Positions 1,562-64,000 of a stretch of 64,000 nt of DNA are shown here, piece after piece. The stretch's first letter is position 1, and each line of letters opens with the position of its first letter. Origin of the DNA: Ryuthela nishihirai (lineage: Eukaryota; Arthropoda; Arachnida; Araneae; Heptathelidae); the NCBI GenBank assembly GCA_038380435.1, contig JAWZYU010000011.1, positions 76,629,501 to 76,693,500 on the forward strand, given 5' to 3'. The position numbers were made by a program, and so were the translations under genes. The notes under the pieces were generated by a model that saw nothing but the letters and a program-made list of their open reading frames with translations, searched no databases and was not told where the DNA came from.

Positions 1562-2037
1562 CTTTGTAATAGTATTATTTCTGTTAGAGCAATATATATA
1601 TATATATATAGGGGGGGGGGGTGCAGAAGTAGGTATACAATTTAAATAATAGATAAATATAATAATAATAATAGGTAAATAGTTTAAATAATATTTTATT
1701 CAATAACAAAACAATTAAGTACAATCTTTTATATGGCTCAAATTGGCGGCCCTCACTATTTACATAATATACAATAATAGAACAGAAACTGTATACCTAC
1801 TTCTGCACCCCTCTGTACATTGGTTTTCGTGTTTCCTTTCTCCCTTGTTTCGTGTTTCCTTTTCCTTTCTCTCTTGTTTCCTTTCTCTCTTCTTTCTTTT
1901 CTTTTCTCCCTTGTTTCGTGTTTCCTTTTCCTTTCTCCCTTGTTTCCTTTCTCTCTTCTTTCTTTTCCTTTCTCCCTTGTTTCGTGTTTCCTTCGTAACA
2001 ATATTATTACTCTAACAGAAATAATACTGTTACGAAG
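1562..2037. repeat. Foldback region enclosing a C/T-rich minisatellite
   Basis: Two sets of inverted repeats nest here. The stretch ending in TATTATTTCTGTTAGAG (1,562-1,590) is mirrored at about 2,008-2,035, and GGGTGCAGAAGTAGGTATAC (near 1,619) is mirrored at about 1,790-1,810. Between them lie a (TA)n run followed by ten or more G (about 1,592-1,620) and a pyrimidine-only tract (1,833-1,990) built of roughly 65-70-bp units containing CTCCCTTGTTTCGTG. Open frames here encode only Phe/Leu/Ser-rich low-complexity sequence. The arrangement could be a small foldback transposon; I see no transposase. Confidence 0.6.
1991..2037. repeat. 18-bp stem hairpin
   Basis: CTTCGTAACAATATTATT (1,991-2,008) pairs with 2,020-2,037 with a single mismatch, leaving an 11-nt loop. 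It closes the right side of the foldback region. Confidence 0.8.
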
Positions 2038-4178
2038 TTCAGTAATACTTATTTGACAATACTGTGTAGTGAGATCGAATTAACCAATATGATAATAAAT
2101 GAACAAATTTAACAGATATAACAATTATTTTTTAAGGAATACGTAAAACTTGAAAATAATTTCCTTAATAAGCAAATGAACTAACTATACTCACGGCTAA
2201 TTATTAACTGATTATCTTTCACTAGCAAATGCCAACAGAAATGAGCGTTAGAACTTTCTGTTACATGACAGTCTAAACCAATAAGTTTTAAATATCGAAA
2301 TATCTTAATTGAAGCTTAGCACTTCATGAAATATTTAATAACAAGGTTATACAAGTCAGTTTTTAAAAAATAACTTTTTTATATTATTTCCAAGCATACA
2401 AAATACCATTTTCTTTGGTATAGCACAACTTTATGAATTACCTTTATCGTCTGCCTCCTAATCTACCGTTACACAAACTGTGAAGTATGTATGAATGGTT
2501 TGACCTAACACTCTTTACGCTTTAAAAGAGCAATGTGTTTACTGGAACCATATAAAGGATAATAAATAATAAATATCCATGATGTAAAATAATAAATGGA
2601 TACTTGTAAAATTCTCTTCCATAAGGAAACACACGTCTGCTATTGGCGAGAACAATCAAATCAACTCAACTGACACTTCTAACTGTGTCACTTCAATTAT
2701 ATAGATATAGCAAGAGTGACGTATTCTTCACAGCAAGAAAAGCACCTCGTAATACAACACACACGTTCTCATGGGCAATTGTCGAAAGTTAGCACGTGGT
2801 TCCAATATTACCCCTTTCTCTGCAAACAGAAAGCATTATTACGTTACCTTTTACATTCAAACTGATTCTTATCTCTTTTTTGTATACGATATCATCTGAA
2901 CGTGAAACACACCAAGACACTTCAACGATTAAATATCTTGTCAATTCATCAAGCACCAACACCAACAGATATGGGCTGAACCTATAAGCCGATGAAAGAT
3001 CGCTTTCGAATGGAATTCATTTGTTTTTCTACACTAACACTTGTTTCAGAAGTGTCACGCATGCCCTCCAATTACCTGAATCATTTTCCTTTTCAAACTC
3101 CATCACAGGGGCAACATGCCATCTAGGAATCCACCACATCATCTTCTCTCTCCTATAGAAAATGAATATCATATCAAAATAATTTAATTAGCGTGGCCTT
3201 TCCTCCAGAAAATAAGATAACATAGTCGACATGTCAGCTCCCTTTAAATTCTCTCTGAAGACTCTACTGACTCCATCTAATTATCTCCAGCTAAATCTAA
3301 TCAAACACTCTCCAGGAAAATAAATATCATCTCTAAGTCTCTTCTGATTTCTCCACATTTCTCCATCAGTGATCTCGTGCAAAAATTGCATCGATTGTTG
3401 ATCTTCCTGGCATGAATCCAAAGTGATTCTCCCCAACCTCTGCATCCTCCTTAAGACTTTTGTTTATCGCCTTCTCCTAGAACATCATCGCGTGGATCAT
3501 TAACTTAATAACTCTGTAATTCACACCCTCTTCTATATAATAACAGTGATAATGTTCATTTCGTCACGTTCAACACGAATGTAGTAAATACTGTTTAATA
3601 AACATAAATACTATGAAATGGTTACACGTGCGTGAAAGAAAATGACGATCATTATAATCGAGTTTAAATGCGTGCTCTCAAACTAACTCAAACTAGAATT
3701 TAAAAAAAAAGAATATGATAATGAGCAAATAATAAATTTCACATATTTGCATCATTTTTATAAGTTACAATGTACAATATGAGGCAAAAGTTTGAAGATG
3801 GAGCAAATAGCTCGAAAACAAGAAGCAATGCAAAAACACCGGAAGTGGGGAACGTATAAGAAATGAACCGGAAGAAATCTAATAATGCTAACTAAAACAA
3901 CCTTTAAGTAATTTTCACGTCAATTTTTCCGTTACCATTGTACGTACGACACAGAGAAAAACAAAATATTAATTAAAAAATAACATAATAATGTAGTATA
4001 TTTCACACCCTGTACACAGATCGGTCAAAATAAATGATACTCTCAATGCTAAGTCAATGAAGAGAGTCATATTCGCCGCCCCGTAACCATGAAATTAAAT
4101 GCTATATAAAATAGTATCAAGAGAGCTAAATGAAGGATCTCAATGGGATTTTTTCAAATACCAAATTTCATTGATTTC
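2038..4178. other. No gene seen
   Basis: About 2.1 kb of AT-rich DNA. Both strands are dense in stop codons and the longest frame is about 63 codons. No repeat family recognised elsewhere in the window appears here. It is probably anciently decayed intergenic DNA. Confidence 0.5.
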
Positions 4179-4189
4179 CTTTAAAATTA

Positions 4190-4627
4190 GAGGCGGGGGT
4201 GGCTCTCGGTAGCGCGCCAGGCTCGTAATCTGTAGTTCCCAGGTTCAAGCTGGGTCAGCGTTGTGATTTATCTCTGCAAAATTCCCCGCCCTGCCCACGG
4301 TCAGTAGGGAACACCGACGTGTATTCCGATGAAAAGGCCGCCGTCCGTCAGATGAGGCCGTGGCACCGTAGCACCGTGTGTCGTGGCACCGTGTGCACGG
4401 TGTATTTTAGTTAAGCCGTGGCACCGTGTGCGGGAGAGCCATACCCTGTGCGCGTTAAAAAACACGATGGATGGACTTGACGGGAGGCTACCATCTGTCT
4501 CCCAACAGCTGTTCCAGTGGGTCCCTTCCCCCAACCTTCTCTGAGCCTTCGGGGTCCTTGTGTCCTGGCCATTTAGCCTATGGTGTGCAAAAAAGTGCCA
4601 CTCAGAGGTAAAACAACCCAACCCAAT
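4190..4627 (+). mobile_element. SINE-1 (tRNA-derived), full length
   Basis: The head resembles a tRNA gene: an A-box-like GTAGCGCGCCAGG, an anticodon-loop-like CTCGTAATC, and a B-box-like CCAGGTTC region that lacks part of the usual GAGTCCC. The loop and flanking words look closest to elongator tRNA-Met with CGT at the anticodon position. A conserved body follows (CCGTCCGTC, GTTAAGCCGTGG, CCAACAGCTGTTCC, CCTTCGGGGTCCTTG) and the element ends in ACAACCCAACCC. An exact 11-bp target duplication, CTTTAAAATTA, flanks it (4,179-4,189 and 4,628-4,638), proving retroposition. This copy has a short internal duplication around CGTGGCACCGTGTG. Open frames on its reverse strand are not genes. Confidence 0.93.
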
Positions 4628-4773
4628 CTTTAAAATTAAAAGAGTTATGGGGAGATAAAAATTGTTAAATGTTGCCAGGAAAACGTAAAGAGCTTTCTCT
4701 GTGATATTTTAATGCATTGCTAGTAACTCACTTAGATACGAAAATCTAATTTTGTATCAGCGAAATGGTGTTG

Positions 4774-5158
4774 GGTTGGGTTGTTTTACCTCTGAGCGGC
4801 ACTTTTTTGCACACCATGGGCTAAATGGCCAGGTCACATGGACCCCGAAGGCTCAGAGAAGGTTGGGGGAGGGGACCCACTGGAACAGCTGTTGGGAGAC
4901 AGATGGTAGCCTCACGTCAAGGCCATCCAGCGTGTTCTTTAACGTGCACAGGGTATGGCTCTCCCACACACGGGGCCACGGCTTAACGTCCCATCCGACG
5001 GACGGCGGCCTTTCCAAGCCCAACGGTGTCCCCTACTGACCGTGGGCAGGGCGGGGAATTTTGCGGAGATAAATCTCAACGCTGACCCAGCTGGGACTCG
5101 AACCTGGGAACTACAGATTACGAGCCTGGCGCGCTACCAACTGAACCACCCCGCCCCT
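4774..5158 (-). mobile_element. SINE-1, full length, opposite orientation
   Basis: The same family as the copy at 4,190, with the AACCC tail on the left and the tRNA-like head at the right end (GCGCTACC, CTGAACCACCCCGCC). A 13-bp target duplication, CGAAATGGTGTTG, flanks it (4,761-4,773 and 5,159-5,171). It lies 146 bp from the previous copy, tail to tail. Confidence 0.93.
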
Positions 5159-5654
5159 CGAAATGGTGTTGCTTTTCATCAAACTATCGTGTTAGATATG
5201 AAAACAGTGTAAAGTTATAACTTTAAAGTATTTTGTACTGTAAGGTCTCATCATTTAATGATGAGAAACAAATTTCTTTTAGCTCTCTTCATTTTCACAA
5301 GATTGCCAACCATGCAATGCTGCTTTGAATATTGCGATTTCAATAAATCTTTCGATTCTGAGGAAAAACGACAAAATTTAGTCTTGGAAGTGGGGAATAA
5401 ATAGGGATCGAATGGAGGAAATCACAATAATGATAATTTGAACAATTCCAACATGTTTTTCAAGGTTATTCATTGGGCAACTCATTCATTCTCGCCCAGG
5501 TCCATTAGATCATGAAGTTTATGCATATAATTATATAACATATAAATACTAAAATAACAAATTAAGTAACAATATCTGCTTAAAGTGAAATGCGGCCTAC
5601 CACATATTAACTTATTTTGCACCCGTATGAGTTTATTTTGAGATCCTTGAGTCA

Positions 5655-5890
5655 GTCTAAGGGGTCATCAACCATCTTTGAGCAGTATCTTGTGCAGGGA
5701 GAGACTGCTTTAGTTTGGTCATGTTGCCTTCCTGAATAAGTTATCGATTAGAGTTATGAACAGTGTGCCTAAAGATCACAGAAGAAAGGAACGTTGAATG
5801 GGTACAGTGTCAAACAAGACCATGTTAGACTTAGCCAGCAGTGGCCAAATGAAACAGAATTAGCTCAGGGAAAAAGGATGCCTCTACATG
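5655..5890 (+). mobile_element. LINE-A 3'-region fragment
   Basis: Diverged match to the C-terminal coding end of LINE-A, including TTTGGTCATGTTGCC, AACAGTGTGCCTAAAG and AATGTCAAACAAGACC-like words. It lacks the 3' tail and contains frameshifts. The 0.5 kb to its left (5,172-5,650) has no recognised feature. Confidence 0.65.
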
Positions 5891-38884: not shown

Positions 38885-39560
38885 GTGTCATGATTTGGAT
38901 GCATTCATTCCGTTAGAAAGCAAGATTATAGCCAATCGCTATTTGATTGTCCTGAGTGATCATCTACACTCAATGGTACAGCATTTCTTTCATGAAGAGA
39001 GAGCTCTCTTTCAGGATGACAATGCTTCTATCCACACCCAGTAGTTTTTGGAACATGATACTGAACGTTTTCATATACCGTGGTCACGGCAGTCACCAAA
39101 CATCAACCCACTGGAAAATTTATGGAACTTCTGGAACAACGTCTCAAGCAGCGTTTTCCACTTCCATTGAACAAACCCGAATGGACCACATTTCTTGTGG
39201 ACGAATGATTACGTATTCACTCAATGGTACAGCATTTCTTTCATGAAGAGAGAGCTCTCTTTCAGGATGACAATGCTTCTATCCACACCCAGTAGTTTTT
39301 GGAACATGATACTGAACGTTTTCATATACCGTGGTCACGGCAGTCACCAAACATCAACCCACTGGAAAATTTATGGAACTTCTGGAACAACGTCTCAAGC
39401 AGCGTTTTCCACTTCCATTGAACAAACCCGAATGGACCACATTTCTTGTGGACGAATGATTACGTATTCCTCCTGCTGACTTTCCTATATTGCTACGCTC
39501 TATGCCATAACGTATATAGGCTGTACTGGACTCAGGTGGCGGTCCAACACCGCATCAGTG
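38885..39560 (+). pseudogene. Tc1-like transposase fragment with internal duplication
   Basis: C-terminal part of a DD34E transposase. Readable protein: LESKIIANRYLIVLSDHL, FQDDNASIHTQ (second Asp), then a stop, FLEHDTERFHIPW and SPNINPLENLWNFW (third catalytic residue, Glu, still present). The segment holding both catalytic motifs is repeated in tandem (see 38,967-39,468). The end reads into ATGCCATAACG and GGTGGCGGTCCAACACCGC. No inverted repeats found. Confidence 0.8.
38967..39468 (+). repeat. Exact 251-bp tandem duplication
   Basis: 38,967-39,217 and 39,218-39,468 appear identical by eye. 251 is not a multiple of three, so the duplication itself shifts the frame. Confidence 0.9.
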
Positions 39561-41070: not shown

Positions 41071-42159
41071 ATGGGAAAAACAAAGGATATTTTGGGGTTC
41101 GATAAACGGCTTATTGTGGGTGCCCGTCTGGCTGCTGGAGCGACGATTTTAAAAACAGCAGAGCTCACTAGTTTCTCAAAAGGTGAGATATCTCGAGTTT
41201 TTAATCAGTGGAAAAATAACCCATATTACTTGTCTAAGAAGCTCAATGACAATCTGTCAGGAACGAGATCGCCGTCGTCTGAGAAGGCTTGTACGGAGAA
41301 ACAGGACTTCCTGTGTGCAGTAATTGACCAAAGCATTCGGTGAAGGCTGTTCCTGACCCATATCTTACACAACTATGCACAGGGAATTGAAGAGGATCGG
41401 TATTAGCAGTTGCATGCCTAAACGGAAACCAGTGATTTCTGCGAAGAACCAGAAAGTTAGTCTACAGTGGTGTCAGGAACACCGTGACTGGACACTGGAA
41501 GACTGGTAAAAGGTCATGTGGACACTGGAAGACTGGTAAAAGGTCATGTCTTCACCGACGAGTCGCGGTAAACCTTGTTCTGTACCGACGGTAGACAGAG
41601 AGTTTGGCGGGAGCCCCTAAAGCAATGGACTCAGCTTGCCTTGTAAACACAACTCAAAGTTCTGGAGGTGGTATCATGGTGTGGGGCACGTTCCATTTGT
41701 ACGGAACAGGTCCCCTGATATCGCTGGAAGGTCGGGTATCCTCCAAGGATTATCTGAACATTGTTGCCGATCAAGTCCATCCTCCAATATTGACTCCTTA
41801 TCCTACAAGTGGCAGCTGTTTCACGGACAATGCTACTGTCAAATGCTACTGTCCTTCGCTCAAGATGTGTTCAGCAGTGGTTCAGCGAGCATGAGAGCGA
41901 CTTCCGCCATCTTCCCTGGCCACCACAAAGCCCGGATCTGAACCCCATTGAGAATGTATAGGACATGTTAGAAAAACAGATCCGGGAGCAAATCCCCAAA
42001 ATCCCCAAATCCCCTCTGTCAAATCTGAGTTAGTTAAAGGACTGTCTGGTGAACACCTGGTATGCTGGAGATGTAAAGGCACTCCAGCGCTTTGTGGAAT
42101 CTATACCAAACTACATACGTGCTGTAATTCGGGCAATAGGAGATCCAACTCGGTATTGA
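41071..42159 (+). pseudogene. Tc1-like transposase (second subfamily), inactivated
   Basis: Opens with an intact N-terminal DNA-binding frame to 41,343 (MGKTKDILGFDKRLIVGAR, then a helix-turn-helix with SKGEISRVFNQW). Several stops follow. The catalytic part is readable as HVFTDESR (first Asp, ~41,550), SGGGIMVWGTFHLYG and EGRVSSKDYLNIVADQVHP (41,660-41,790), a degraded second-Asp block (CFTDNATVKC), and WPPQSPDLNPIENV (~41,925, Glu present) followed by a stop. A 30-bp unit, starting GACACTGGAAGACTGG, is duplicated at 41,491-41,550, adding ten codons in frame. The frame ends in GDPTRY and a stop. Confidence 0.85.
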
Positions 42160-42165
42160 ATAAAG

Positions 42166-42265
42166 GTTTCTATTAAGTGGCTGGTGTTTAACGGTATTGT
42201 GTAAAGTTTCTATTAAGTGGCTGGTGTTTAACGGTATTGTGTAAAGTTTCTATTCAGTGGCCGTT
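42166..42265 (+). repeat. 40-bp tandem repeat, 2.5 units
   Basis: The unit starting GTTTCTATTAAGTGGCTGGT stands at 42,166 and 42,206, with a partial third from 42,246. It lies just after the Tc1 relic and may be derived from its 3' end. Confidence 0.9.
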
Positions 42266-42521
42266 ATTAACTTGTAGCTGGTGTGTGTATAAAAGATATA
42301 AATGTTTTTTGGTTTGCGGTAAACACAGCGGCAAGGAATCGTTATATAAACATTACCAGGAAAGTGATGATGTCACCTTTTTGAACAGTTGCCTAAACTG
42401 CCTAATTAAAAACAACTTTATCTTTTCTAATATTTTTTTTTTTTTTTTTTTACTTTACAATATTAGTAGCATCGTAGTAGTGTCATCCCATTATACGGAA
42501 CCCCCATTTGCACAGTGCTTT

Positions 42522-42569
42522 CCCCCTATAACGTCACCGGCCACGCCCCCTATGACGTCACCGGCCACG
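42522..42569 (+). promoter_or_regulatory. Doubled CRE-like and CCACGCCC sites in the terminal repeat
   Basis: A 24-bp unit occurs twice in tandem. Each contains (A/G)ACGTCA followed by CCGGCCACG; the second has a full palindromic TGACGTCA at 42,553-42,560, the consensus for CREB/ATF factors. The right end keeps one TGACGTCA at 54,611-54,618. A role in transcription or end recognition is inference. Confidence 0.5.
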
Positions 42570-42641
42570 CCAACTTCCGGCCATGCCCCTTTATTAATAA
42601 TTAATAATTTTTCACCTTATTAAACACCCCCCTTCATCCCC

Positions 42642-43182
42642 CCCCGATAGGGGACCACCTTGTCGTGGTGGGGGGGCCTAGGGCCCAGCAACCCGGCTGA
42701 AGGCTGTGCCGACCGGGTTGGGCGCCGGTTGGACATGGCCAAGGCCAACCGAGGTTGAAGACGCTGCTGGCCGGCTTGATTGCCGGTCGGGTGGTGACGG
42801 CGTCGGAGACCTCACTTTCAGGGACCTTGGGTGGTCAGTTCGACGGCTCGGTCGAAAGGTTCCTCCTGCCTAGTAGGCACGAGCCATCCAAAAAGTCTGG
42901 GTCCTACTAAGAGTCTCCACCCCGGGTGCCGATCGAGCTTGGATCTTTATATCCTTGCACATTTGCAAACCGGGGAATAGATTAAATTTAGGTTTCTTCC
43001 GGTGGTTAGCTTTCCTTCTATAGGACTGCTGCCATGTGAGGCCGGGGTTGAGGTGTGCCTATAGGGCGTATTCCTTGCCCCCGGCTCTAGATAGTCATGG
43101 CTTTTCTTTAACTAGGTAGTGCTGTCAGGCGGAACCGGGAATTGCCGTGGTTGCACAAGATCGCAACATAGAGATCAATCAA
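42642..43182 (+). mobile_element. Element X, copy C (541 bp)
   Basis: Inserted only in the left arm and flanked by a 15-bp duplication, CCCCCCTTCATCCCC (42,627-42,641 and 43,183-43,197). The start forms hairpins: CCCC-GAT-AGGGG, then CCACC/GGTGG. Next is an 8-bp stem, CAACCCGG (42,689-42,696) with CCGGGTTG (42,713-42,720). It shares the GGGGAATAGATTAAATTTAG block and the AGTGCTGTCAGGCGGAACCG end with copies at 9,500 and 10,837. It has no open frame, and with both ends and a duplication it behaves as a short non-autonomous retroelement. Confidence 0.8.
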
Positions 43183-44142
43183 CCCCCCTTCATCCCCTTT
43201 CCCCCATCAGTGGCGCCATCTGGTGACAATGAGAAGTATTATTTCCCAAAAAAACCCTATTTTTATTCTAATTCTTCGATTTTTGATTTCCCCCTATTAA
43301 AAATTCCTCCCCCCTTATTAAAAAAAAACCCTGGCGCCATCTGCTGACAGTGAGAAGTACTATTTTCGGAAAAGCCCCTATTTTAACTCTAATTTCTCGT
43401 TTTCGGACCCCCCCCCCCCCCGGTAGTCCCAGCTATATTTTAAGCCCTCCCTCCTCGTGCAGACCCCCTGGTTGACCTATATTAAGCCCTCCCTCCTTCC
43501 CGCAGATCGGCTGATGCAAGTCTCAGAATAATTGCATTGGGTAGCAACGATTGGTTGTTGCAGGTCTCAGAATAATTGCACAGAAAAGGATGATACAAGT
43601 CTCAATTGTAAAAACACGTCCTCACATAAAATCAAAGTTGTATTCTTATTAAACCTCCCTCCCCTTAAAAATTTAACCGACTGCGTCCAATGTGCATTTT
43701 AGTACATTGCATGTATTTAAAAACTAACTAGGTATTCATCTGAAATTTTACAAGTTCACTCAACACTTTTTGAATGGGAATGCCTAATGCAGGTCACAAT
43801 TGCAACTTTCGTTAACAAAAAATCAACACTCAAAGTTGTATTCTTATTAATTAAACACCCATCAAAACCTCACATCCCTTCTATTAAAAGTTACCTCTAT
43901 TAAAAATTGTTTGCTATTCATTTTAGCAAGACTGTTAAACGATTCCCTTATAATTAAAATTCACCGCTATTAAACTCCTTCGGTATTCATTTTTCCAAGT
44001 AAACTAATCAATTCCATAGTAATTAAACACTCATCAAAATTCCCTCCCTTTATTAAAAACCACTCCACGGTCGAAATAAAACGTTGTAAACCAGTTTTTT
44101 CTCTAGATACCTTTCACCGGAAAAAAAAAATCCTTCCCCCCC

Positions 44143-44199
44143 GCAGTGAGATTTGATCCGCTATCTTGGACTCGATAGCCGGACGCACTCGACTATGGC
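44143..44199 (-). other. tRNA-like remnant in the arm (mirrored at 53,501-53,558)
   Basis: On the reverse strand: TAGTCGAGTGCG (A-box-like), a GCTATC/GATAGC stem with an 8-nt loop, then GGATCAAATCTC (B-box-like). The T arm does not pair well and the right-arm copy has lost part of the anticodon-like stem. It is not a working tRNA gene; it may be a relic of a tRNA or SINE. Confidence 0.35.
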
Positions 44200-47100
44200 T
44201 TGTACTTGATGTGGCTTAGATGCGCGTAGAATGGGTCAGACATTTCAGATATTAACCTAGTACGTTTTTTACAACCTTCGTATTCTTTATAACTAGTTTT
44301 TTCTACGTATTTCTTATAATGAACCCGATAGTCCTTTCACATTAATATACGTATTTTAAGTCCGTTTCAGTAATACTTATTTCTTTTAGCCCTAGCGACT
44401 AATGGTTGTCGCATTTTTACTAGAAGAAGACCTAAATCACAGTAACACCCCCGCAGAAAAAAAAAGGCTATTGGGTAAAAAGTTAGTAAAATCGGACTAT
44501 ACTCGTCATGATGAAAAATATTGAGGGGTAATAGGGCCGACCTAAAAGACTCCGTGTTCGGATCCTCACCCCGGACAACATTACACTGACGGGTGGTTAA
44601 GTCCTGTCAAATTATTCCAAACGGGGAATCACATTGATGAATGAATCTTGGATTACTGCTGCTTTCATATCAGGAGCGCTGCCTTACATCGTGAAAACCC
44701 ACTCACACCCTTGATCAGTGTTTAAGCACTCGAAATTTTTACAAGTCCAGAGTGGGTTCTCCGTATTCCCAATTTCCTTTACTAAGTCACTTCAAAAACA
44801 TCGTGATTGCAAAAGTATGACTAATAAAACTAACTGTTTTATTTCACCATGTTTTGAAAATACTTATTACTGTTGTATCTTGGGAGAGTACGGGATGGAG
44901 AGAGTAACACTGTTCGAAGAAAAATCAGGTGAAACAGTTTTTAAAAAATCGTCTCCTCCATCGTTTACCGGTGAACATATGTCTCATCACGCTGGTGAAA
45001 TCAGGTGAAAAAATATTTTTTTTTGTACGAGGTAGAATGATATAGAAAGTAAGAATGTTAAAAGTACATTCCATAAAAAACTTTAGTTCCATCACGATTG
45101 CACGTTAATGGAGTAGGGAGGCATTAGTTTAATACTTCAGCTATAAAAAAAATAATACAATGTCTCACGCGAGCGCACCCCTCTCAACTTGTCTACGCTA
45201 ATCCGCTAAAATTTTATTTGCAACGGGACTGATAGTCAAAATTTAGCAGAATACTTCTTCGAATCCGCTATACGCTCTGGCCATCGCCTAGTGCTTCTAC
45301 CGTCGTTTCGACACTCACTCCCATGTGATCTAAACGACGGACACAACCAGTTCGTGAAGTACAAAGGTCGCGGGGCAGCAGTGGAATGCATGACCAGTCA
45401 CTCCCGTTGAATGCTACACTATCAGAACTCCATGTGGCTATCGCGTTTCTTCAAGCCCGTTTTAATCAACACTTATTTCTTTTAACTCGGTGACTATTGG
45501 TTGCCACATTTTTACGAGAAGAAGGACAGCCTCACAGTGGCAGTCCCGCCGAAAATAAAAAAAAATAATAATAAAAGGAAAAATTTGATTTTATTCCTCG
45601 TGATGAAAAATATTGAAGGTAATAGGGTCGACCTAAAAGATCCGTGTTCGGATCCTCACCCCGAATGGTTTTTAACAAAAGTCCTACGATATTAAAAACT
45701 ATCCCGTTACACGATGTTGTTTAAAAATACTTATTACGGCTGTATTCTCAGTACATGACGCAGACTCTTTCCTAGGAAGTAACGCTACTCGATGCAGCCC
45801 CAGTTACATGCTTTTACAGGGTAAAGACGGTGCAGTAGAATGTTAAAAGTAGAATTCAAACGTTTCCGTAAAAAAATTTTAGTTTCAACTTAAAGGAGTA
45901 TGGTTCGACTCAGAAAGAACAGGATTTGACCTCGTACATTAGAAAAGGGAACAAATCCATCCCCTGTGTCCTTTGCTAGGTGGTAGTATTAGTATCCTTA
46001 TACAAGCTCACTTCAAATTTTCATATGACATTCTGGGGTTAAGTTTCAACCTTTATTTTTTCCAACTGCAATAATGCACAGTTTCTGTGGAACGCGAGCG
46101 ACTTCGACGCAAAGGACGATCCACACTAACGATACGACCGTGCACTAGAAAACCGTGAATGGGTTTATATGAAACGTAATGTACAGAGCTTGACAACAGT
46201 AATATAGACAGGGATCCTCGCTCACTATACTATCATAATCCTCGAGAAATTATCAAATATGAATAGACAGCTGTAAAGTTCCGACCACACAATCTTCCGA
46301 GTTAATGCTGCTCTCGATGCTGTCAGGATCACAAGGGATGTTTTACACATTCAACGACTTTTTTCTGACATTCGTTAATCAAAGTGTCTATCTACACATC
46401 AGACTTGTCATTACATCGACAAACTACCTATCTACCCATAGGCTGAGTAAGCGTTTAGAATGAAAAATTGAGTTTGCTTCACTACACAGATTCGTAAAAC
46501 GCTCATTAATTATTTTGTGAGAGAAAGCATACATAAAGTTCAAAAACTAATACATCTTCCCTTTCTAATAAACCATATCATCAAAGTAGATAAATTGCAA
46601 GCATCATCGGATCTGATTCCGTATATCTGCTTACGACGAAAATCTCACAATAGCTTATCCAATATTTTACCCACGATACAGTATGTGACTAGGTCGTTTA
46701 ACTAAATTACGTGCATAAACGAAAATGTAAAGGGATACCTGTAAATTCGCGAACATTTCACTGGATAGGTGAATATTTTCACAATTCTTTTCAAGGCAGA
46801 ATAACTGTGACGAGAGAGAAAGTATAAAAATGCAGTGGGATGGCTGTAAAAACAACAGATTACAGCGCAAATACTGTAAGATAGAAAAAACGACTATTAA
46901 CAAGTGCCATCTAAGGAGTGATCGATAAAAGTCACACCGTAGCGGAAGGAGTAATACAGAAAAAATCGTAAAATATTAAGCCCCTCCCCACGCTAGTAAA
47001 TCACGGTCCATTGCGTACACACGGATGAATATCACAAAATACTTTGCATATAGTAAACATCCGTAAAGAACCACCGAAATTTGGAAATTTAAAATCTGAA

Positions 47101-47945
47101 AACTCACTGTTTATAGTATTTCCATGAAAAGTCGAGCCCCAGAATCGAGACCTAGCTCTGTCAGCAGTTATTCGAATGTGCTATCTCTTTTCAGCCCTCT
47201 CACCACGTTTGAATAAGTGCATGTGAAGGTGGCTAGCTGCAAACACAAGCTTTTCGACAAAAGATCAGGTGTTTCACTACAATCTAACACGGAGATGTCT
47301 GTTTAGTTATTTTTCCTCCTATTTTCTACACTAGTGTGGAAGTCTTAGAACAAGCGGTACTATGTGAAAGTGGTTCGGGCAAGCACACGTTTTTTGATAA
47401 TGTCATGTATCCTGTTTGGAAAGAACACTGTCTATAGAGCATTACTCCTGTAATTCCGTACTAATTTCGATTCTGAGGGACGAAGGTTGATATTTTTTTT
47501 TCAGAATTATGTAACCAGCCATAGTGTTCGGATATTTGATTCATAGTAAGACATGAACGTTGTTTACACACCATCGACATCCTCTTACCCCTTCTACGGG
47601 TTCGTATGAGAGGTAACTGTTACGACAATTAGCGGGGTGAATTCGAATTTATTTTTAAGAGCAAAGACGCATTAATTTCCGACTAGCTAGCTAGCTAGAG
47701 AACGATATATTAACCTGCTAAGTTTGATTTTAACGATCAGATAGTGTATATATCATCACTTTTTTTTTTTAGTTCATACTAATGTTCCAACTTTCAAATG
47801 AAATATTGTCTCGTTATAAGCGATTACATACAAAGAGATACACACTCTATACTTTAAATCTATAGAGACAACGATCACTATCTATGGAACACATCTGTGA
47901 AATATCACCACATTTTTGTTTTTAATGTACGGTTGAATCGTTCTA

Positions 47946-48149
47946 CTATGCTAGCTTTGGTTTCCCATCCCTTTCTTTTACACCCACCCGATATAAAACA
48001 TTCGACCCGACATAGCTTGCTAGCTGTGCGGGGTCTTGATACAGAGAACGTTCATTACACCAGACAATATTAACACTTCTAAGGTTAAACTTAAAATTCC
48101 TGTAACTATACAAAGAAATCACATCGACAAAAATATCAGAGACATTCAT
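47946..48149 (-). CDS. Small ORF, left-arm copy (67 codons)
   Basis: Mirror image of the ORF at 49,551-49,754 with an identical predicted protein. No function recognised. Expression here would need the left-arm partial gene's transcription. Confidence 0.4.
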   Translation of the reverse strand: MNVSDIFVDVISLYSYRNFKFNLRSVNIVWCNERSLYQDPAQLASYVGSNVLYRVGVKERDGKPKLA

Positions 48150-48204
48150 ATTTATTAACAAATTATCACTTGTTTTTACAAAATAACTAAGGTCACATTA
48201 ATAT

Positions 48205-48459
48205 TTAGTTAGTACATATCAGTTCACCGTGCACCTCTCTTAGTAATGTTGAAAAGTTCAATTTAGACATAAATGTGATATTAGCAGGACAGTTTAGTTC
48301 AATACATGATTCTTCCACAAAACGTTCGGCAATATCGGTTAAATTAACGTTTCTTACCACTTCTGTGAAATAATCGTAAGCTGATTCAGCGTTTATGGTA
48401 CTGGCATGTATAGACGTGCTTTCGAAATATACATGCCAGTAAATATTTGTAGACGTCAT
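48205..48459 (-). pseudogene. Mirrored 3' end of the PC4-like gene
   Basis: From 48,399 leftward this repeats the last ~63 codons of the central gene (from INxESAYDYF to the end ELICTN). It differs at only two residues: Ala for Thr near the start, and Ser for Pro in LNFSTLLRE. The first ~21 codons come from unique centre sequence and are unrelated. It lacks the PC4-like part and the Cys/His motif, so it is a by-product of the inverted duplication. Confidence 0.85.
48400..48440. repeat. 13-bp perfect hairpin at the inner junction
   Basis: ACTGGCATGTATA (48,400-48,412) pairs exactly with TATACATGCCAGT (48,428-48,440) around a 15-nt loop. It abuts the inner edge of the left arm. Confidence 0.9.
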
Positions 48460-48538
48460 TATGTTTACTAAGAGATGACAAATCTAGCAGATCTCGAGCA
48501 ATGGAAGGCTGTTACAGGGACACGTCACAGGTTTAAGG

Positions 48539-48565
48539 TATAAGTATTACCCTTCGACGGTCAGT
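48539..48565 (+). promoter_or_regulatory. Predicted core promoter of the PC4-like gene
   Basis: TATAAG at 48,539-48,544 stands 24 nt before the A of TCAGT at 48,561-48,565, the arthropod initiator consensus. Transcription from there would give a 33-nt leader before the ATG at 48,596. CACGTCAC at 48,521-48,528 lies upstream. Sequence-based prediction only. Confidence 0.55.
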
Positions 48566-48595
48566 AAGGCATTATTTTTCCAGTATCGACTTGCT

Positions 48596-49495
48596 ATGGC
48601 TTGTGTTAAACGTTCCCTGACCGGTGGTGATCTTCCTGCGAAGCGACTTGCTGTTAGAGATGCTGGTCACAATATGTTTCAACTCGGCTCTGATCTGTTT
48701 GCGGGTGTTTGTGAATACCGGACATATCCTAAAGTGCACATACGTGTGTTCGAGAGTGATAACTCATTAAAACTGTATCCTACAAAGGATGGTGTGATGC
48801 TGTCTGAAGAACAGTGGTATGGCCTGGTTTCGTATGCGTCTACAATCGTCGAATCATTCGAAGATGTCGAATACTGCGAGTATGAACTGGACGCTATGGT
48901 TTGTTCGTCGTGCTCAAAGGTGGACATGGGGTGGTCATTAAAAAAAGCATTCCCCATGATGGAGGACGTGTTTTCGTCATCGGTTCGTCTCAGCGTCGAA
49001 CAGTGGCAGCGGTTAGTAGATTTATGTGATCCAATCACTTACAGTTTGATGGCTCTGAAGTTTGAAAACGGTAAATTTTGGAATATCATGCGGAAGGCCA
49101 AATTAGCTGCAAATCTTCCACGAAGAGCCCCATCTAACTATCACCCCCATGAACAAGACAGTAGTGATTCCGTAAAGCTTATGGACTGTTTAAAGCAGAC
49201 TTTGAAAACAGTTCTCCGAAAAGAACTTTTTACGCTGCTACGTAAGAACTGCTACGGGTGTGAAGTGGATCATCCTAGTCAACTTCGTCATTCGTGCCTC
49301 ACCATAAACACTGAATCAGCTTACGATTATTTCACAGAAGTGGTAAGAAACGTTAATTTAACCGATATTGCCGAACGTTTTGTGGAAGAATCATGTATTG
49401 AACTAAACTGTCCTGCTAATATCACATTTATGTCTAAATTGAACTTTCCAACATTACTAAGAGAGGTGCACGGTGAACTGATATGTACTAACTAA
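48596..49495 (+). CDS. PC4-like DNA-binding protein with Cys/His motif, 299 aa
   Basis: An intact, intronless frame and the only convincing gene of the palindrome. Residues ~40-88 resemble the transcription coactivator p15/PC4 fold, which binds single-stranded DNA: KVHIRVF (46-52), a short turn, then GVMLSEEQWYGLV (66-78), matching the family's G-x-S/T-L-x-x-x-x-W pattern. A weaker second copy lies at ~108-145 (VRLSVEQWQRLVDL). Residues 219-235 form a Cys/His cluster (CYGCEVDHPSQLRHSCL; C219, C222, H226, H232, C234) that could bind zinc. The C-terminal ~60 residues are acidic-helical in character and unassigned. TATAAG and TCAGT lie upstream, the ATG has a G at +4, and an AATAAA follows the stop. 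Codons up to ~236 are in unique DNA and the rest in the right arm. The PC4 call is by eye; a role in element replication or transcription is inference. Confidence 0.8.
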   Translation: MACVKRSLTGGDLPAKRLAVRDAGHNMFQLGSDLFAGVCEYRTYPKVHIRVFESDNSLKLYPTKDGVMLSEEQWYGLVSYASTIVESFEDVEYCEYELDAMVCSSCSKVDMGWSLKKAFPMMEDVFSSSVRLSVEQWQRLVDLCDPITYSLMALKFENGKFWNIMRKAKLAANLPRRAPSNYHPHEQDSSDSVKLMDCLKQTLKTVLRKELFTLLRKNCYGCEVDHPSQLRHSCLTINTESAYDYFTEVVRNVNLTDIAERFVEESCIELNCPANITFMSKLNFPTLLREVHGELICTN

Positions 49496-49543
49496 ATATT
49501 AATGTGACCTTAGTTATTTTGTAAAAACAAGTGATAATTTGTT

Positions 49544-49549
49544 AATAAA
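49544..49549 (+). terminator. Poly(A) signal AATAAA
   Basis: Lies 48 nt after the stop codon of the PC4-like gene and just before the ATG of the next small ORF. The same hexamer is mirrored in the left arm. Confidence 0.55.
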
Positions 49550-49550
49550 T

Positions 49551-49754
49551 ATGAATGTCTCTGATATTTTTGTCGATGTGATTTCTTTGTATAGTTACAG
49601 GAATTTTAAGTTTAACCTTAGAAGTGTTAATATTGTCTGGTGTAATGAACGTTCTCTGTATCAAGACCCCGCACAGCTAGCAAGCTATGTCGGGTCGAAT
49701 GTTTTATATCGGGTGGGTGTAAAAGAAAGGGATGGGAAACCAAAGCTAGCATAG
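49551..49754 (+). CDS. Small ORF downstream of the PC4-like gene, 67 codons
   Basis: Starts MNVSDIFVDVISLYSYRN 55 nt after the PC4-like stop and ends GVKERDGKPKLA. The protein is identical in the left-arm copy while the flanking DNA shows changes. I do not recognise it. It could be a second gene, a 3' exon, or chance. Confidence 0.4.
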   Translation: MNVSDIFVDVISLYSYRNFKFNLRSVNIVWCNERSLYQDPAQLASYVGSNVLYRVGVKERDGKPKLA

Positions 49755-52700
49755 TAGAACGATTCAACCGTACGTTAAAAACAAAAATGTGGTGATATTT
49801 CACAGATGTGTTCCATGGATAGTGATCGTTGTCTCTACAGATTTAAAGTATAGAGTGTGTATCTCTTTGTATGTAATCGCTTATAACGAGACAATATTTC
49901 ATTTAAAAGTTGGAATATTAGTATGAACTAAAAAAAAAGTGAAACAAAAGAAAGAAACACTATCTGATCGTTAAAATCAAACTTTAGCAGGTTAATATAT
50001 CGTTCTCTAGCTAGCTGGCTAGTCGGAAATTAATGTCTCTTTGCTTTTAAAAATAAATGCGACTTCACCCCGCTAATTGTCGTAACAGTTACCTCTCATA
50101 CGAACCCGTAGAACGGGTAAGAGGATGTCGATGGTGTGTAAACAACGTTCATGTCTTACTATGAATCAAATATCCGAACACTATGGCTGGTTACATAATT
50201 CTGAAAAAAAAAATATCAACCTTCGTCCCTCAGAATCGAAATTAGTACGGAATTACAGGAGTAATGCTCCATAGACAGTGTTCTTTCCAAACAGGATACA
50301 TGACATTATCAAAAAACGTGTGCTTGCCCGAACCACTTTCACATAGTACCGCTTGTTCTAAGACTTCCACACTAGTGTAGAAATAGGAGGAAAAATAACT
50401 AAACAGACATCTCCGTGTTAGATTGTAGTGAAACACCCGATCTTTTGTCGAAAAGCTTGTGTTTGCAGCTAGCCACCTTCACATGCACTTATTCAAACGT
50501 GGTGAAAGGGCTGAAAAGAGATAGCACATTGGAATAATTGCCGACACAGCTAGGTCTCGATTCTGGGGCCCGACTTTTCATGGAAATTCTATAAACTGTG
50601 AGTTTTCAGATTTTAAATTTCCAAACTTCGGTGGTCCTTTACGGATGTTTACTATATGCAAAGTATTTTTTGGTATTCATCCATGTGTACGCAATGGACC
50701 GTGATTTACTAGCGTGGGGAGGGGCTTAATATTTTACGATTTTTTCTGTATTACTCCTTCCGCTACGGTGTGACTTTTATCGATCACTCCTTAGATGGCA
50801 CTTGTTAATAGTCGTTTTTTCTATCTTACAGTATTTGCGCTGTAATCTGTTGTTTTTACAGCCATCCCACTGCATTTTTATACTTTCTCTCTTGTGACAG
50901 TTATTCTGCCTTCAAAGGAATTGTGAAAATATTCACTATCCAGTGAAATATTCGCAAATTTACAGGTATCCCTTTACATTTTCGTTTATGCACGTAATTT
51001 AGTTAAACGACCTAGTCACATCCTATGTCGTGGGTAAAATATTGGATAAGCTATTGTGAGATTTTCGTCGTAAGCAGATATACGGAATCAGATCCGATGA
51101 TGCTTGCAATTTATCTACTTTGATGATATGGTTTATTAGAAAGGGAAGATGTATTAGTTTTTGAACTTTATGTATGCTTTCTCTCACAAAATAATTAATG
51201 AGCGTTTTACGAATCTGTGTAGTGAAGCAAACTCAATTTTTCATTCTAAACGCTTACTCAGCCTATGGGTAGATAGGTAGTTTGTCGATGTAATGACAAG
51301 TCTGATGTGTAGATAGACACTTTGATTAACGAATGTCAGAAAAAAGTCGTTGAATGTGTAAAACATCCCTTGTGATCCTGACAGCATCGAGAGCAGCATT
51401 AACTCGGAAGATTGTGTGGTCGGAACTTTACAGCGGTCTATTCATATTTGATAATTTCTTGAGGATTATGATAGTATAGTGAGCGAGGATCCCTGTCTAT
51501 ATTACTGTTGTCAAGCTCTGTACATTAAGTTTCACATAGATCCATTCACGGTTTTCTACTGCACGGTTGTATCGTTAGTGTGGATCGTCCTTTGTGTCGA
51601 AGTCGCTCGCGTTCCACAGAAACTGTGCATTATTGCGGTTGGAAAAAATAAAGGTTGAAACTTAACCCCAGAATGTCATATGAAAATTTGAAGTGAGCTT
51701 ATATAAGGATACTAATACTACCACCGAACAAAGGACACCGGGGATGGATTTGTTCCCTTTTCAAATGTACGAGGTCAAATCCTGTTCTTCCTGAGTCGAA
51801 CCATACTCCTTTAAGTTGAAACTAAAATTTTTTTACGGAAACATATGAATTCTACTTTTAACATTCTACCGCACCGTCTTTACCCTGTAAAAGCATGTAA
51901 CTGGGGCTGCATCGAGTAGCGTTACTTCCTAGGAAAGAGTCTGCGTCATGTACTGAGGATACAGCCGTAATAAGTATTTTTAAACAACATCGTGTAACGG
52001 GATAGTTTTTAATATCGTAGGACTTTTGTTAAAAACCATCCGGGGCGAGAATCCGAACACGGATCTTTTAGGTCGACCCTATTACCTCCAATAATTTTCA
52101 TCACGAGGATTAAAAGCAAATTTTTCCTTTTATTATTTTTTTTTTTTTATTTTCGGCGGGACTGCCACTGTGAGGCTGTCCTTCTTCTAGTAAAAGTGTG
52201 ACAACCAATAGTCACCGAGTTAAAAGAAATAAGTGTTGATTAAAACGGGCTTGAAGAAACGCGATAGCCACATGGAGTTCTGATAGTGTAGCATTCAACG
52301 GGAGTGACTGGTCATGCATTCCACCGCTGCCCCCGCGACCTTTGTACGTCACCAACTGGTTGTGTCCGTCATTTAGATCACATGGGAGTGAGTGTCGAAA
52401 CGAGGGTAGAAGCACTAGGGGATGGCCATAGCATATAGCGGATTCGAAGAAGTATTCTGCTAAATTTTGACTATCAGTCCCATTGCAAATAAAATTTAAG
52501 CGTTTTAGCGTAGAAAATTTGAGAGTGGTGCGCTCGCGTGAGACATTGTATTTTTTTTTATAGCTGAAGTATTAAACTAATGCCTCCCCACTCCATTAAC
52601 GTGCAATCGTGATGGAACTAAAGTTTTTTACGCAATGTACTTTTAACATTCTTACTTTCTATATCATTCTACCTCGTACAAAAAAAAAATATTTTTTCAC

Positions 52701-54761
52701 CCGATTTCACCAGCGTGATTAGACATATGTTCACCGGTATACGACGATGGAGACGATTTTATAAAAACTGTTTCACCTGATTTTTCTTAGTGTTACTCTC
52801 CCGTACCGAAGATACAACAGTAATAAGTATTTTTATAACATGGTGAAATGAAACAGTTAGCTTTATTAGTAATACTTTTGCAATCACGATGTTTTTGAAG
52901 TGACTTAGTAAAGGAAATTGGGAATACGGAGAACCCACTCTGGACTTGTAAAAATTTCGAGTGCTTAAACACTGATCAAGGGTGTGAGTGGGTTTTCACG
53001 ATGTAAGGCAGCGCTCCTGATATGAAAGCAGCAGTGATCCAGGATTCATTCGTCAATAAAAACCTTGTGATTCTCCGTTTGGAATAATTTCATAGGTCTT
53101 AACCACCCGTCAGTGTAACGTTGTCCGGGGTGAGGATCCGAACACGGAGTCTTTTAGGTCGGCCCTATTACCCCTCAATATTTTCATCATGACGAGTATA
53201 ATCCGATTTTATTAATTTTTTACCCAACAGCATTTTTTATTTTCTGCTGGGGTGTCACTGTGATGTAGGTCTTCTTCTAGTAAAAATGTGACAACCATTA
53301 GTCGCTAGGGCTAAAAGAAATAAGTGTTACTGAAACGGACTTAAAATACGTATATTAATGTGAAAGGACTATCGGGTTCATTATAAGAAATAAGTAGAAA
53401 AAGCTAGTTATAAAGAATGCGAAGATTGTAAAAAACGTACTAGGTTAATATCCGAAATGTCTGACCCGTTCGACTCGCATCTAAGCCACATCAAGTACAA
53501 GCCATAGTCGAGCGCGTCCGGCTATAGAGTCCAAGATTTCGGATCAAATCTCACTGCGGGGGGGGAAGGATTTTTTTTTTTCCGGTGAAAGGTATCTAGA
53601 GAAAAAACTGGTTTACAACGTTTTATTTCGACAGTGGAGTGGTTTTTAATAAAGGTGAGGGAATTTTGATGAGTGTTTAATTACTATGGAATTGATTAGT
53701 TTACTTGGAAAAATGAATATCGAAGGAGTTTAATAGCGGTGAATTTTAATTATAAAGGAATCGTTTAACAGTCTTGCTAAAATGAATAGCAAACAATTTT
53801 TAATAGAGGTAACTTTTAATAGAAGGGATGTGAGGTTTTGATGGGTGTTTAATTAATAAGAATACAACTTTGAGTGTTGATTTTCTGTTAACGAAAGTTG
53901 CAATTGTGACCTGCATTAGGCATTCCCATTCAAAAAGTGTTGAGTGAACTTGTAAAATTTCAGATGAATACCTAGGGAGTTTTTAAATACATGCAATGTA
54001 CTAAAATGCACATTGGACGCAGTCGGTTAAATTTTTAAGGGGTGGGAGGTTTAATAGGAATACAGCTTTGATTTTATGTGAGGAGGTGTTTTTACAATTG
54101 AGACTTGTATCATCCTTTTCTGTGCAATTATTCTGAGACCTGCAACAACCAATCGTTGCTACCCAATGCAATTATTCTGAGACTTGCATCAGCCGATCTG
54201 CGGGAAGGAGGGAGGGCTTAATATAGGTCAACCAGGGGGTCTGCACGAGGAGGGAGGGCTGAAAATATAGCTGGGACAACCGGGGGGGGGGTCCGAAAAC
54301 GAGAAATTAGAGTTAAAATAAGGGGCTTTTCCGAAAATAGTATTTCTCACTGTCAACAGATGGCGCCAGGTTTTTTTTTTATAAGGGGGAGGAAATTTTA
54401 AAAGGGGGGGAATCAAAAATCGAAGAATTAGAATATAAATAGGGGTTTTTGGGAAAATAGTACTTTTCATTGTCACCAGATGGCGCCACTGAGGAGAAAG
54501 GGGATGAAAGGGGGTGTTTAATAAGGGGGAAGAAATTATTAATTATTAATAAAGGGGCTTGGCACGTTAAGGCATGATTATGTCATGTTACATCGTAGGG
54601 GCGTGGTCGGTGACGTCATAGGGGAAAGCACTGTGCAAGGGGGTTTAAAATATAAAGCACTGTGCATCCGTATAATGGGATGACACTACTCATTGACTAG
54701 TCTTGTCAAAATTTAGTAAAAAAAAGTATGTTGGTCTTGCATAGCTGCCAAATTGGTTAAT

Positions 54762-63027: not shown

Positions 63028-63236
63028 CTAAATATTCACAACGCAAACCAATAGTTTTGTGTTTTGTTGTTGAAAGCAGCAGTTTTGAAATTTAAAAATT
63101 GATCAACAGTTTTGGAATTACATGAGAGCGTTTCTGTTATCGCTGAACAAAATGCGCACGCTTAACTCCATAATTCCATCTCTTATATTCATTTGGTGAA
63201 AGACATTTATGTTCTTATTCAAATCAGTGTTGAATT

Positions 63237-64000
63237 TCGTCTGATTAGTTTAATTTCACATTTCGTCTGAATTCGTCTGATTAGTTTAATTTCACATTTC
63301 ATCTGAATTCGTCTGATTAGTTTAGTTTCACATTTCGTCTGATTTTGTCTGATTAGTTAACTTTCACATTTCGTCTGAATTCGTCTGATTAGTTTAGTTT
63401 TATGCTTCGTCTGAATTCGCCTGATTAGTTTAGTTTCACATTTCATCTGAATTCGTCTGATTAGTTTAATTTCACATTTCGTCTGAATTCGTCTGATTAG
63501 TTTAGTTTTATATTTCGTCTGAAATCGTCTCATTAGTTTAGTTTCATATTTCGTCTGAATTCGTCCGATTAGTTAAGTTTCACATTTCGTCTGAATTCGT
63601 CTGATTAGTTTAATTTCACATTTCGTCTGATTAGTTTAGTTTCACATTTCGTCTGAATTCGTCTGATTAGTTTAGTTTCACATTTCGTCTGAAATCGTCT
63701 GATTAGTTTAATTTCACTTTTCGTCTGATTTTCTCTGATTAGTTAAGTTTCACATTTCGTCTGAATTCGTCTGATTAGTTTAGTTTTATGTTTCGTCTGA
63801 ATTCTCCTGATCAGTTTAGTTTCACATTTCATCTTAATTCGTCTGATTAGTTAAGTTTCACATTTCGCTGAATTCGTCTGATTAGTTTAATTTCGCATTT
63901 CGTCTGAATTCGTCTGATTAGTTTAGTTTCACATTTCGTCTGAATTCGTCCGATTAGTTAAGTTTCACATTTCGTCTGAATTCGTCTGATTAGTTTAGTT
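63237..64000 (+). repeat. 36-bp satellite array, about 21 units, runs off the window
   Basis: The unit reads GTCTGAATTCGTCTGATTAG followed by TTTAGTTTCACATTTC. Units differ by a few substitutions (AGTTTAA/AGTTAAG, CACATTTC/TATGCTTC), and some lack the 10-bp GTCTGAATTC half, itself a near-duplicate of GTCTGATTAG. Every unit has in-frame stops, so it is not coding. The array continues beyond 64,000. Confidence 0.95.

Follow-up and report, generated by a model that had tools for sequence, protein, structure and literature searches.

A Polinton-derived family of palindromic elements in the genome of the spider Ryuthela nishihirai

The analysed stretch of 64,000 nt from the genome of Ryuthela nishihirai, referred to here as the window, contains a palindrome of two long inverted arms around a short unique centre. 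The features of this locus are the following:

42470..42475, no strand: left flanking hexamer CATCGT, candidate target duplication
42476..42499, plus strand: left terminus, AGTAGT..., 24 nt the same as in the right terminus
42476..48399, plus strand: left arm, non-coding except for the final 64 codons of a lost gene copy
42642..43197, no strand: later insertion of 556 bp present in the left arm only, with CCCCCTTCATCCCC repeated at both flanks
48205..48399, minus strand: remnant of the lost gene copy, last 64 codons, in the left arm
48399..48441, no strand: remnant of the original palindrome core, inverted repeat around a loop
48596..49495, plus strand: PC4/acintoc5-type gene, open frame, 299 aa
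49292..54690, minus strand: right arm, read on the minus strand inward from the terminus; the 3′ end of the gene lies in its innermost part
54667..54690, minus strand: right terminus, reading ...ACTACT on the plus strand
54691..54696, no strand: right flanking hexamer CATTGA, candidate target duplication

The original prediction described inverted arms of 5.9 and 5.4 kb, a 901-bp centre and AG/CT outer ends sharing at least 24 exact bases. Alignment of the arms bears this layout out. The arms extend over 42476–48399 and 49301–54690 and are separated by a 901-bp spacer, and the homology of the right arm continues to 49292 beyond one mismatch. The inner-arm identity in a piecewise alignment is 96.6% (5016 of 5193 ungapped columns), and the arm divergence in the window is 3.4%. 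All of the 24 terminal nucleotides agree between the arms. The outermost ends are more diverged (34 mismatches in 239 positions) than the remainder (167 in 5092); the left-arm segment 42500–42641 matches the right arm at 114 of 140 positions. Separate origins of the two ends were considered in view of this divergence. No conclusion was drawn, because other copies gain or lose short tandem units in this region. The unequal length of the arms is due to a segment that was inserted later into the left one (about 42642–43197) and is related to a repeat at about 9.5–11.4 kb of the window. The divergence of the arms and the confinement of the insertion to one of them show that the palindrome is not an artefact of read folding. 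It is genuine in the assembled sequence.

The homology of the arms ends at AGTAGT on each side of the palindrome. The T-run and the ACT beyond these points, which had been thought to blur the exact limits, lie outside the element. The window contains the terminal 21-mer twice, and no copy of it appeared in 100 shuffles. As noted earlier, the flanking hexamers CATCGT and CATTGA agree at four of six positions; the probability of at least four agreements by chance is 0.038. Ten copies, the window included, were tried for the location of their termini. Both ends were located in six of them and not both in the other four. AGTAGT is present at 11 of the 12 ends of these six copies. Four of the six have an exact 6-bp target duplication, one has a match at five of six positions, and the window has one at four of six. 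According to PMC8097293, AGTAGT/ACTACT is the commonest end motif of vertebrate Mavericks. The proposed Polinton-like ends are thus confirmed, as is the view of the element as a derivative that has kept both termini.

The gene encodes a protein with a PC4 domain (PF02229) at aa 28–78, which scores 31.5 bits in Pfam against a cut-off of 25. Its C-terminal motif, CxGC..DHPSQ..H.CL, also occurs in the accessory protein acintoc5 of the Pimephales minnow (fish) adintovirus and is invariant in all 12 aligned proteins, acintoc5 (P0044) included. The gene is under constraint between clades, with dN/dS values of 0.34–0.37. The stretch of aa 104–124 (approximate limits) in the window protein is unlike the other intact copies and is probably a result of decay. 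A second PC4 repeat was guessed by eye, but Pfam and the structure model gave no support for it. The predicted structure has a mean pLDDT of 59, and fold searches with it yielded nothing that reached E 0.001, hence no fold support for a function. Neither the gene nor its alignments retrieved a confirmed relative from viral contigs: none of the 17 and 11 pattern matches from two of these scans was confirmed by tblastn. The scan of viral contigs with the terminal 23-mer likewise gave no confirmed relative.

Pfam analysis of the window gene and a six-frame scan of the right arm revealed none of the Polinton genes for PolB, integrase, ATPase, protease and capsid in the window copy, and no Pfam family at all in the right arm. 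Since the gene is of the PC4 type and the right arm lacks any such family, the element is not an autonomous Polinton. The same two scans, of the window gene and the right arm, found no transposase domain; full-length members of a Foldback/Galileo-type transposon would carry a P- or MULE-type transposase. Long inverted repeats with internal repetition are described for Galileo (PMC3573991), and the window arms are also long and contain internal repeats. However, the Polinton ends, the 6-bp duplications, the similarity to a PolB-bearing Polinton described below and the PC4/acintoc5 gene make such an assignment extremely improbable.

The search of the host assembly for further copies, suggested in the original prediction, was successful: the window palindrome is one degraded member of a large multicopy family of mobile elements in the 3.11-Gb genome. 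At least 53 arm matches (40 of 2690 candidates scored) and at least 132 gene matches (131 of 3097 first-look candidates scored) were obtained. Among the matches scored, nine pairs of gene matches share a gap of exactly 960 bases. Arms on both sides are present at 15 of the 18 other loci fetched, and the one-sided deletions differ from locus to locus. The arms and differing deletions at these loci, the target duplications, and the arm divergence and one-sided insertion of the window leave folded reads or wrong scaffolding with hardly any credibility as the source of the palindromes. Caution is required for copy L013 alone, whose arms are identical over 2255 bp and whose right arm contains a gap of 200 N.

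Five copies (L011, L013, L014, L016 and L025) are symmetric and contain two outward-facing genes. Since each half of these relatives has the gene, the single gene and the 901-bp centre of the window are regarded as the outcome of a later one-sided deletion. The unique centre is therefore a secondary product, and the claim of a single central gene holds for the window copy and not for its symmetric relatives. What is left of the original core is a perfect 14-bp inverted repeat (48399–48412 and 48428–48441) around a 15-nt loop (48413–48427). An interpretation of this repeat as the scar of a snap-back whose loop measured 901 nt was dropped, because the sister copies show that it is what survives of the innermost part of the original palindrome. 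The same 15-nt loop is found at the axis of L009, L010 and L016.

The copies also bear on a possible origin in the host chromosome, namely an inverted duplication of one integrated Polinton end in break repair, with no transposition. In yeast, fold-back inversions are known to arise through ssDNA hairpins (PMC7467729). For the family this explanation is refuted by the many dispersed copies and by the nine pairs whose gaps all measure exactly 960 bases. The two outer limits of the palindrome are moreover AGTAGT termini, and the duplications are exact in four copies. We consider host fold-back very unlikely.

A longer element was found in the same assembly:

C4, about 85054246–85071353: full Polinton, 17.1 kb, with AGTAGT/ACTACT ends, TCCAGA on both sides and a 185-bp inverted repeat

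It contains PolB and an rve integrase above the Pfam cut-offs and PC4-like frames below the cut-off. Over the outermost part of its PolB side, about 1 kb, there are patches of 73–93% identity to the palindrome arm (best E 1e-28); this similarity was found with one of the two PolB families looked at. At the far end, opposite to PolB, just about 45 bp are common with the arm. The expected PolB- and integrase-bearing relative thus exists, but the sharing of the arm with it is patchy over the outer 1 kb or so of the PolB side. Absence of both other copies and an autonomous relative would have spoken against the original prediction, and both were found. Its proposal that one end of a larger element, together with the terminal gene, gave rise to the arms is at odds with this Polinton, in which the arm resembles the PolB-side end and the PC4-like genes lie toward the other. 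A full Polinton with exactly the gene of the window was not found.

In all ten palindromes tested, the arms of the same palindrome are sisters in the tree, with bootstrap values of just 77 in L009 and 66 in L010. By raw identity, the arms of L010 and L027 are closer to an arm of another copy, and so are those of L014 in a shorter data set. The family has at least three symmetry axes. Sister arms in ten of ten palindromes and several axes imply that the palindromes were made repeatedly, and not by the single inverted duplication originally envisaged. In L009, L010 and L016, the bases next to the loop match the longer-centred copies before the symmetry begins, which is the pattern that self-priming would leave. 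Sister arms could likewise be produced by gene conversion after insertion, in a Polinton-derived family with long inverted repeats that multiplies as a normal double-stranded element. Next to the centre, 399 bp of the window arms differ at just two positions, fewer than elsewhere, as local conversion would leave them, and the identical arms of L013 point in the same direction. Conversion would, however, need to have stopped, since the arms of most copies differ by 1–5%; it left the 556-bp insertion of the window unconverted, and shifts of the axis require new fold-back events anyway. This explanation is rather unlikely, though it deserves consideration.

We propose, with a probability of roughly 65%, that the palindrome is a non-autonomous Polinton/Maverick derivative that is mobilised in trans and remade as a palindrome from one half by self-primed copying. 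The identity as a Polinton-derived family is well supported by the (AGT)2//(ACT)2 ends, the 6-bp duplications, the sequence relation to an autonomous Polinton and a gene of a type associated with Polintons; the replication step we infer. Full Polintons would supply PolB and integrase in trans, and the PC4 protein may serve as the ssDNA-binding protein of strand-displacement replication. A strand started at one terminus would fold back near the centre, prime itself and copy its own half. Such copying would give arms that are identical at birth and provide two ends for the integrase. Once inserted, the palindromes lose sequence on one side of the centre, which in the window copy left one gene and the 901-bp spacer. 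No replication intermediate was seen in the genome data examined. More tentatively, the replicating form could be a linear DNA of half length, protein-primed in the Polinton manner at one end and closed by a hairpin at the other. This DNA would be a satellite of full Polintons with its own PC4 ssDNA-binding protein. Since the integrase requires two ends, chromosomes would receive it solely in the form of a head-to-head dimer.

If the proposed route is true, the birth-identical arms with their moving axes would record Polinton replication intermediates, and protein-primed, self-primed copying would become testable. Each insertion would carry its own clock, as LTRs do, and Polintons could have satellites of their own. 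A constrained PC4-type gene in a window copy that has no polymerase or integrase hints at what a Polinton satellite must bring.

The proposed folding back of a strand started at one terminus recalls the panhandle and fold-back by-products of protein-primed linear DNAs such as adenovirus and the invertron plasmids. Such by-products of adenovirus exist. The family described here differs from such by-products of adenovirus and invertrons as an integrated, multicopy lineage of palindromes. For invertron plasmids, panhandle intermediates have been proposed (PMC1864894). With the Polintons/Mavericks (virus-like transposons, here of the adintovirus type, with protein-primed PolB and rve integrase) the family shares the ends, the duplications and the PC4/acintoc5-type gene. 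It differs from them in the missing core genes of the window copy and in the two outward genes of its symmetric copies. The phrases tried for non-autonomous or defective Polintons/Mavericks do not occur in the open-access literature searched, and its best matches include no paper that combines Polinton with the term PC4; subscription papers lay mostly outside this scope. Intact vertebrate Mavericks have inverted repeats of 46–1447 bp (PMC8097293), compared with about 5.4 kb for the window arms. In the Polinton-like viruses of protists, the inverted repeats measure from hundreds to thousands of bp, and duplications of 4–6 bp occur in some cases (PMC12220804). These are gene-bearing viral genomes, whereas the window element consists almost entirely of its arms.

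The 12.2-kb palindrome at 42476-54690, for which Polinton-like ends and one central gene had been predicted, is supported by the window sequence. It belongs to a non-autonomous, palindromic Polinton lineage, and its Polinton-derived identity is strongly supported. The palindrome has the following parts, with a 901-bp centre between the arms.

42476-48399: left arm
about 42642-43197: later insertion in the left arm
48596-49495 (+): 299-aa frame with a PC4 domain and an acintoc5-like C-terminal motif
49292-54690: right arm

The inner arms agree in 5016 of the 5193 ungapped columns of their alignment. The outermost 24 nt of both arms are identical, and arm homology stops at AGTAGT on the left and the right alike. 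The left arm is longer than the right because of the later insertion, which is flanked by a repeated 14-mer and is related to another repeat within the window. The 3.4% arm divergence and this one-sided insertion argue against a folded read as the origin of the palindrome. An older duplication lies inside the arms (about 76% identity, 1.09 kb apart). The gene-free part of the right arm has a longest stop-to-stop frame of 119 aa, compared with a mean maximum of 103 aa (95th percentile 138) over 200 shuffles. A Pfam scan of 49551-54541 in six X-masked frames detected no family. Short tandem units with TGACGTCA- and CCACGCCC-like words occupy 42522-42571, just inside the terminus. Such units are also present at the ends of other copies, their number differing between ends, and they resemble adenovirus terminal repeats.

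Both element ends were located in six of the ten copies tried; in the short pieces fetched for L011, L013, L014 and L016, at least one end was absent or eroded (L numbers denote fetched loci, C numbers contigs of the same assembly). AGTAGT or its complement is found at 11 of the 12 ends, and the sole deviant, the right end of L019, is one base off. The coordinates give lengths of about 13.0 kb for the C2 copy and about 13.1 kb for the C5 copy.

Hexamers flanking the six copies (left/right)
L009: TCTGTG/TCTGTG
L019: TATCTA/TATCTA
C2 copy: TACGTG/TACGTG
C5 copy: AGCGTG/AGCGTG
L027: TCCACC/TTCACC
Window copy: CATCGT/CATTGA

According to PMC8097293, vertebrate Mavericks most often carry (AGT)2//(ACT)2 ends; their inverted repeats span 46-1447 bp and their duplications are 6 bp long.

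A search for PF03175 gave at least 151 matches in the genome (76 of 4358 candidates scored). Many of the matching frames are open for more than 1200 aa, and several copies tie in score. Polinton-type PolB frames are abundant and form equal-score groups (e.g. C4:85060269, C15:2315502, C14:18851248, C9:8366573). Their large numbers, their length and the equal-score groups suggest a recent expansion. The PolB-side ends were inspected in two PolB families, two stretches each. The Polinton on C4 (about 85054246-85071353) has AGTAGT at one end and ACTACT at the other, is flanked on both sides by TCCAGA and has an inverted repeat of 185 bp (97.8%). Its frames include PolB and an rve integrase above the Pfam cut-offs, and an A32-type ATPase and an adenovirus-type protease below them; no capsid family was found in these frames with Pfam. 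The outer 1 kb or so of this Polinton on its PolB side matches the palindrome arm in patches of 73-93% identity (best E 1e-28) in broadly conserved order, and CCCCCTTTGCACAGTGCTTTCCCC near the end is common to both, but the far end matches the arm across about 45 bp only and the palindrome gene has no tblastn match in this Polinton. In a single BLASTP comparison, the PC4 regions of the two share 30% identity (E 5e-5). Two adjacent PC4-like frames lie beside the integrase of this same Polinton (L044:7852-8998, minus strand), with E values of 2.9e-4 and 0.007, below the Pfam cut-off. The palindrome arm is thus similar to the PolB end, whereas the PC4-like frames are located nearer the opposite end, so the parent of the palindromes is best regarded as a relative of the C4 Polinton and not this Polinton itself. 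The second PolB family also starts with AGTAGT; its two stretches show no end similarity to the arm, and in one of them two segments of about 40 bp match the inner arm. In the full Polinton at L040, the region of about 4.6 kb from terminus to PolB frame (1246-5868) is rich in tandem repeats and contains no 150-aa frame, so long non-coding ends are not peculiar to the palindromes. The palindromes may be mobilised in trans.

The PC4 domain of the window gene scores 31.5 bits against a Pfam cut-off of 25, and solved PC4 chains match with E values from 0.0043 to 0.056. The predicted protein may bind ssDNA. The C-terminal CxGC..DHPSQ..H.CL is unchanged across all 12 aligned proteins. The species-named proteins among the 69 relatives listed are mostly from cypriniform fish, and one relative, from a Pimephales minnow adintovirus, is named acintoc5. 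Another, P0052, is a chromodomain fusion, a feature reminiscent of Polinton integrase tails. The dN/dS ratio was determined for six open frames: the window, both of L013 (identical to each other) and one each of L014, L016 and L022. Between clades, the window excluded, it is 0.34-0.37, with a synonymous excess in two pairs (Fisher p 8e-5 and 5e-5); the within-clade ratio is 0.59-0.78, with few underlying changes. The window gene gives 0.44-0.87 against the others. It is probably decaying, because about 20 of its residues read differently from other copies and it is one residue shorter.

The 3.11-Gb assembly, in which the window lies on C11, contains many other palindrome copies, found both with the arm and with the gene. 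With 40 of 2690 candidates scored, the inner arm matched at least 53 times, at 32 places; with 131 of 3097 scored, the gene matched at least 132 times among the best-scoring candidates. Residues 1-299 are covered by 129 of the 132 gene matches listed, 125 lack an internal stop, and 29 head-to-head pairs occur among them. Nine listed pairs with nearly equal scores, on C2, C5, C8, C13, C19, C24 and C32, are separated by exactly 960 bases, which points to a recently spread subfamily. Centres were fetched for 18 of the 31 non-window places of the inner-arm search. Arm pieces are two-sided in 15 of these (exceptions: L021, L024, L026); the second side of L023 is a distant outer arm piece (66% identity). 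The right arm of the L016/L017 copy (C28, about 2301639-2311156) holds an insert of about 9.5 kb.

State of the gene in the palindromes
L011, L013, L014, L016, L025: 860 bp or more of the gene region on each side, reading outward
L012, L027: one gene copy complete, much of the second retained
L009, L010, L018, L019, L020, L022, L023, window: one gene copy wholly or mostly lost
L015: only the tails of both gene copies

The single central gene of the original prediction is present in the window copy, but the centre was originally symmetric, the gene lying in both halves of the first five loci. Because other loci keep the gene on both sides or have lost one copy, the unique centre of the window copy is the remainder of a symmetric centre after a one-sided deletion. 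A 14-bp repeat around a 15-nt loop, which also occurs in L009, L010 and L016, marks the old axis.

Separate inheritance of left and right arms would be expected to produce two arm clades. In the inner-arm tree, the arms of one palindrome are sisters in all ten palindromes tested, the window included, with bootstrap values of 77 for L009, 66 for L010 and 95-100 for the remaining eight; for the window, support was read from the split separating it from all others. A tree of shorter arm pieces recovered the same pairs, though less strongly supported. By raw identity, the arms of L010 and L027 are closer to another copy's arm, as are those of L014 in the shorter data. The main rival explanation is gene conversion after insertion, which would keep the arms alike. 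We propose that the palindrome is instead remade through a fold-back step, in which a strand initiated at one terminus would fold back and then copy its own half. The symmetry axis varies by group: the 15-nt loop (L009, L010, L016), to which the window, its own axis deleted, was assigned by loop motif; L011 with L012; L013 with L014; and perhaps L025. In L009, L010 and L016, the bases adjacent to the loop, preceding the start of symmetry, are TATGCAT, where the window reads TATACAT. TATGCAT also occurs in longer-centred copies (e.g. L011, L013, L014, L021, L022). Such bases beside the loop would be expected to remain after self-priming at an imperfect short repeat.

Other repeats were observed in the window.

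4187-5162: imperfect inverted repeat (about 74%), parts of which are found again at several window places
38967-39469: 251-bp unit in two identical tandem copies
41400-42170: beside the left end of the palindrome, decayed Tc1-like transposase (DDE_3 and Tc3-type HTH matches; a Tc1-like frame nearby also matches DUF4817, which is suggestive of an arthropod host), then a 40-nt tandem repeat
63231-64000: 36-bp tandem satellite, continuing beyond the window end
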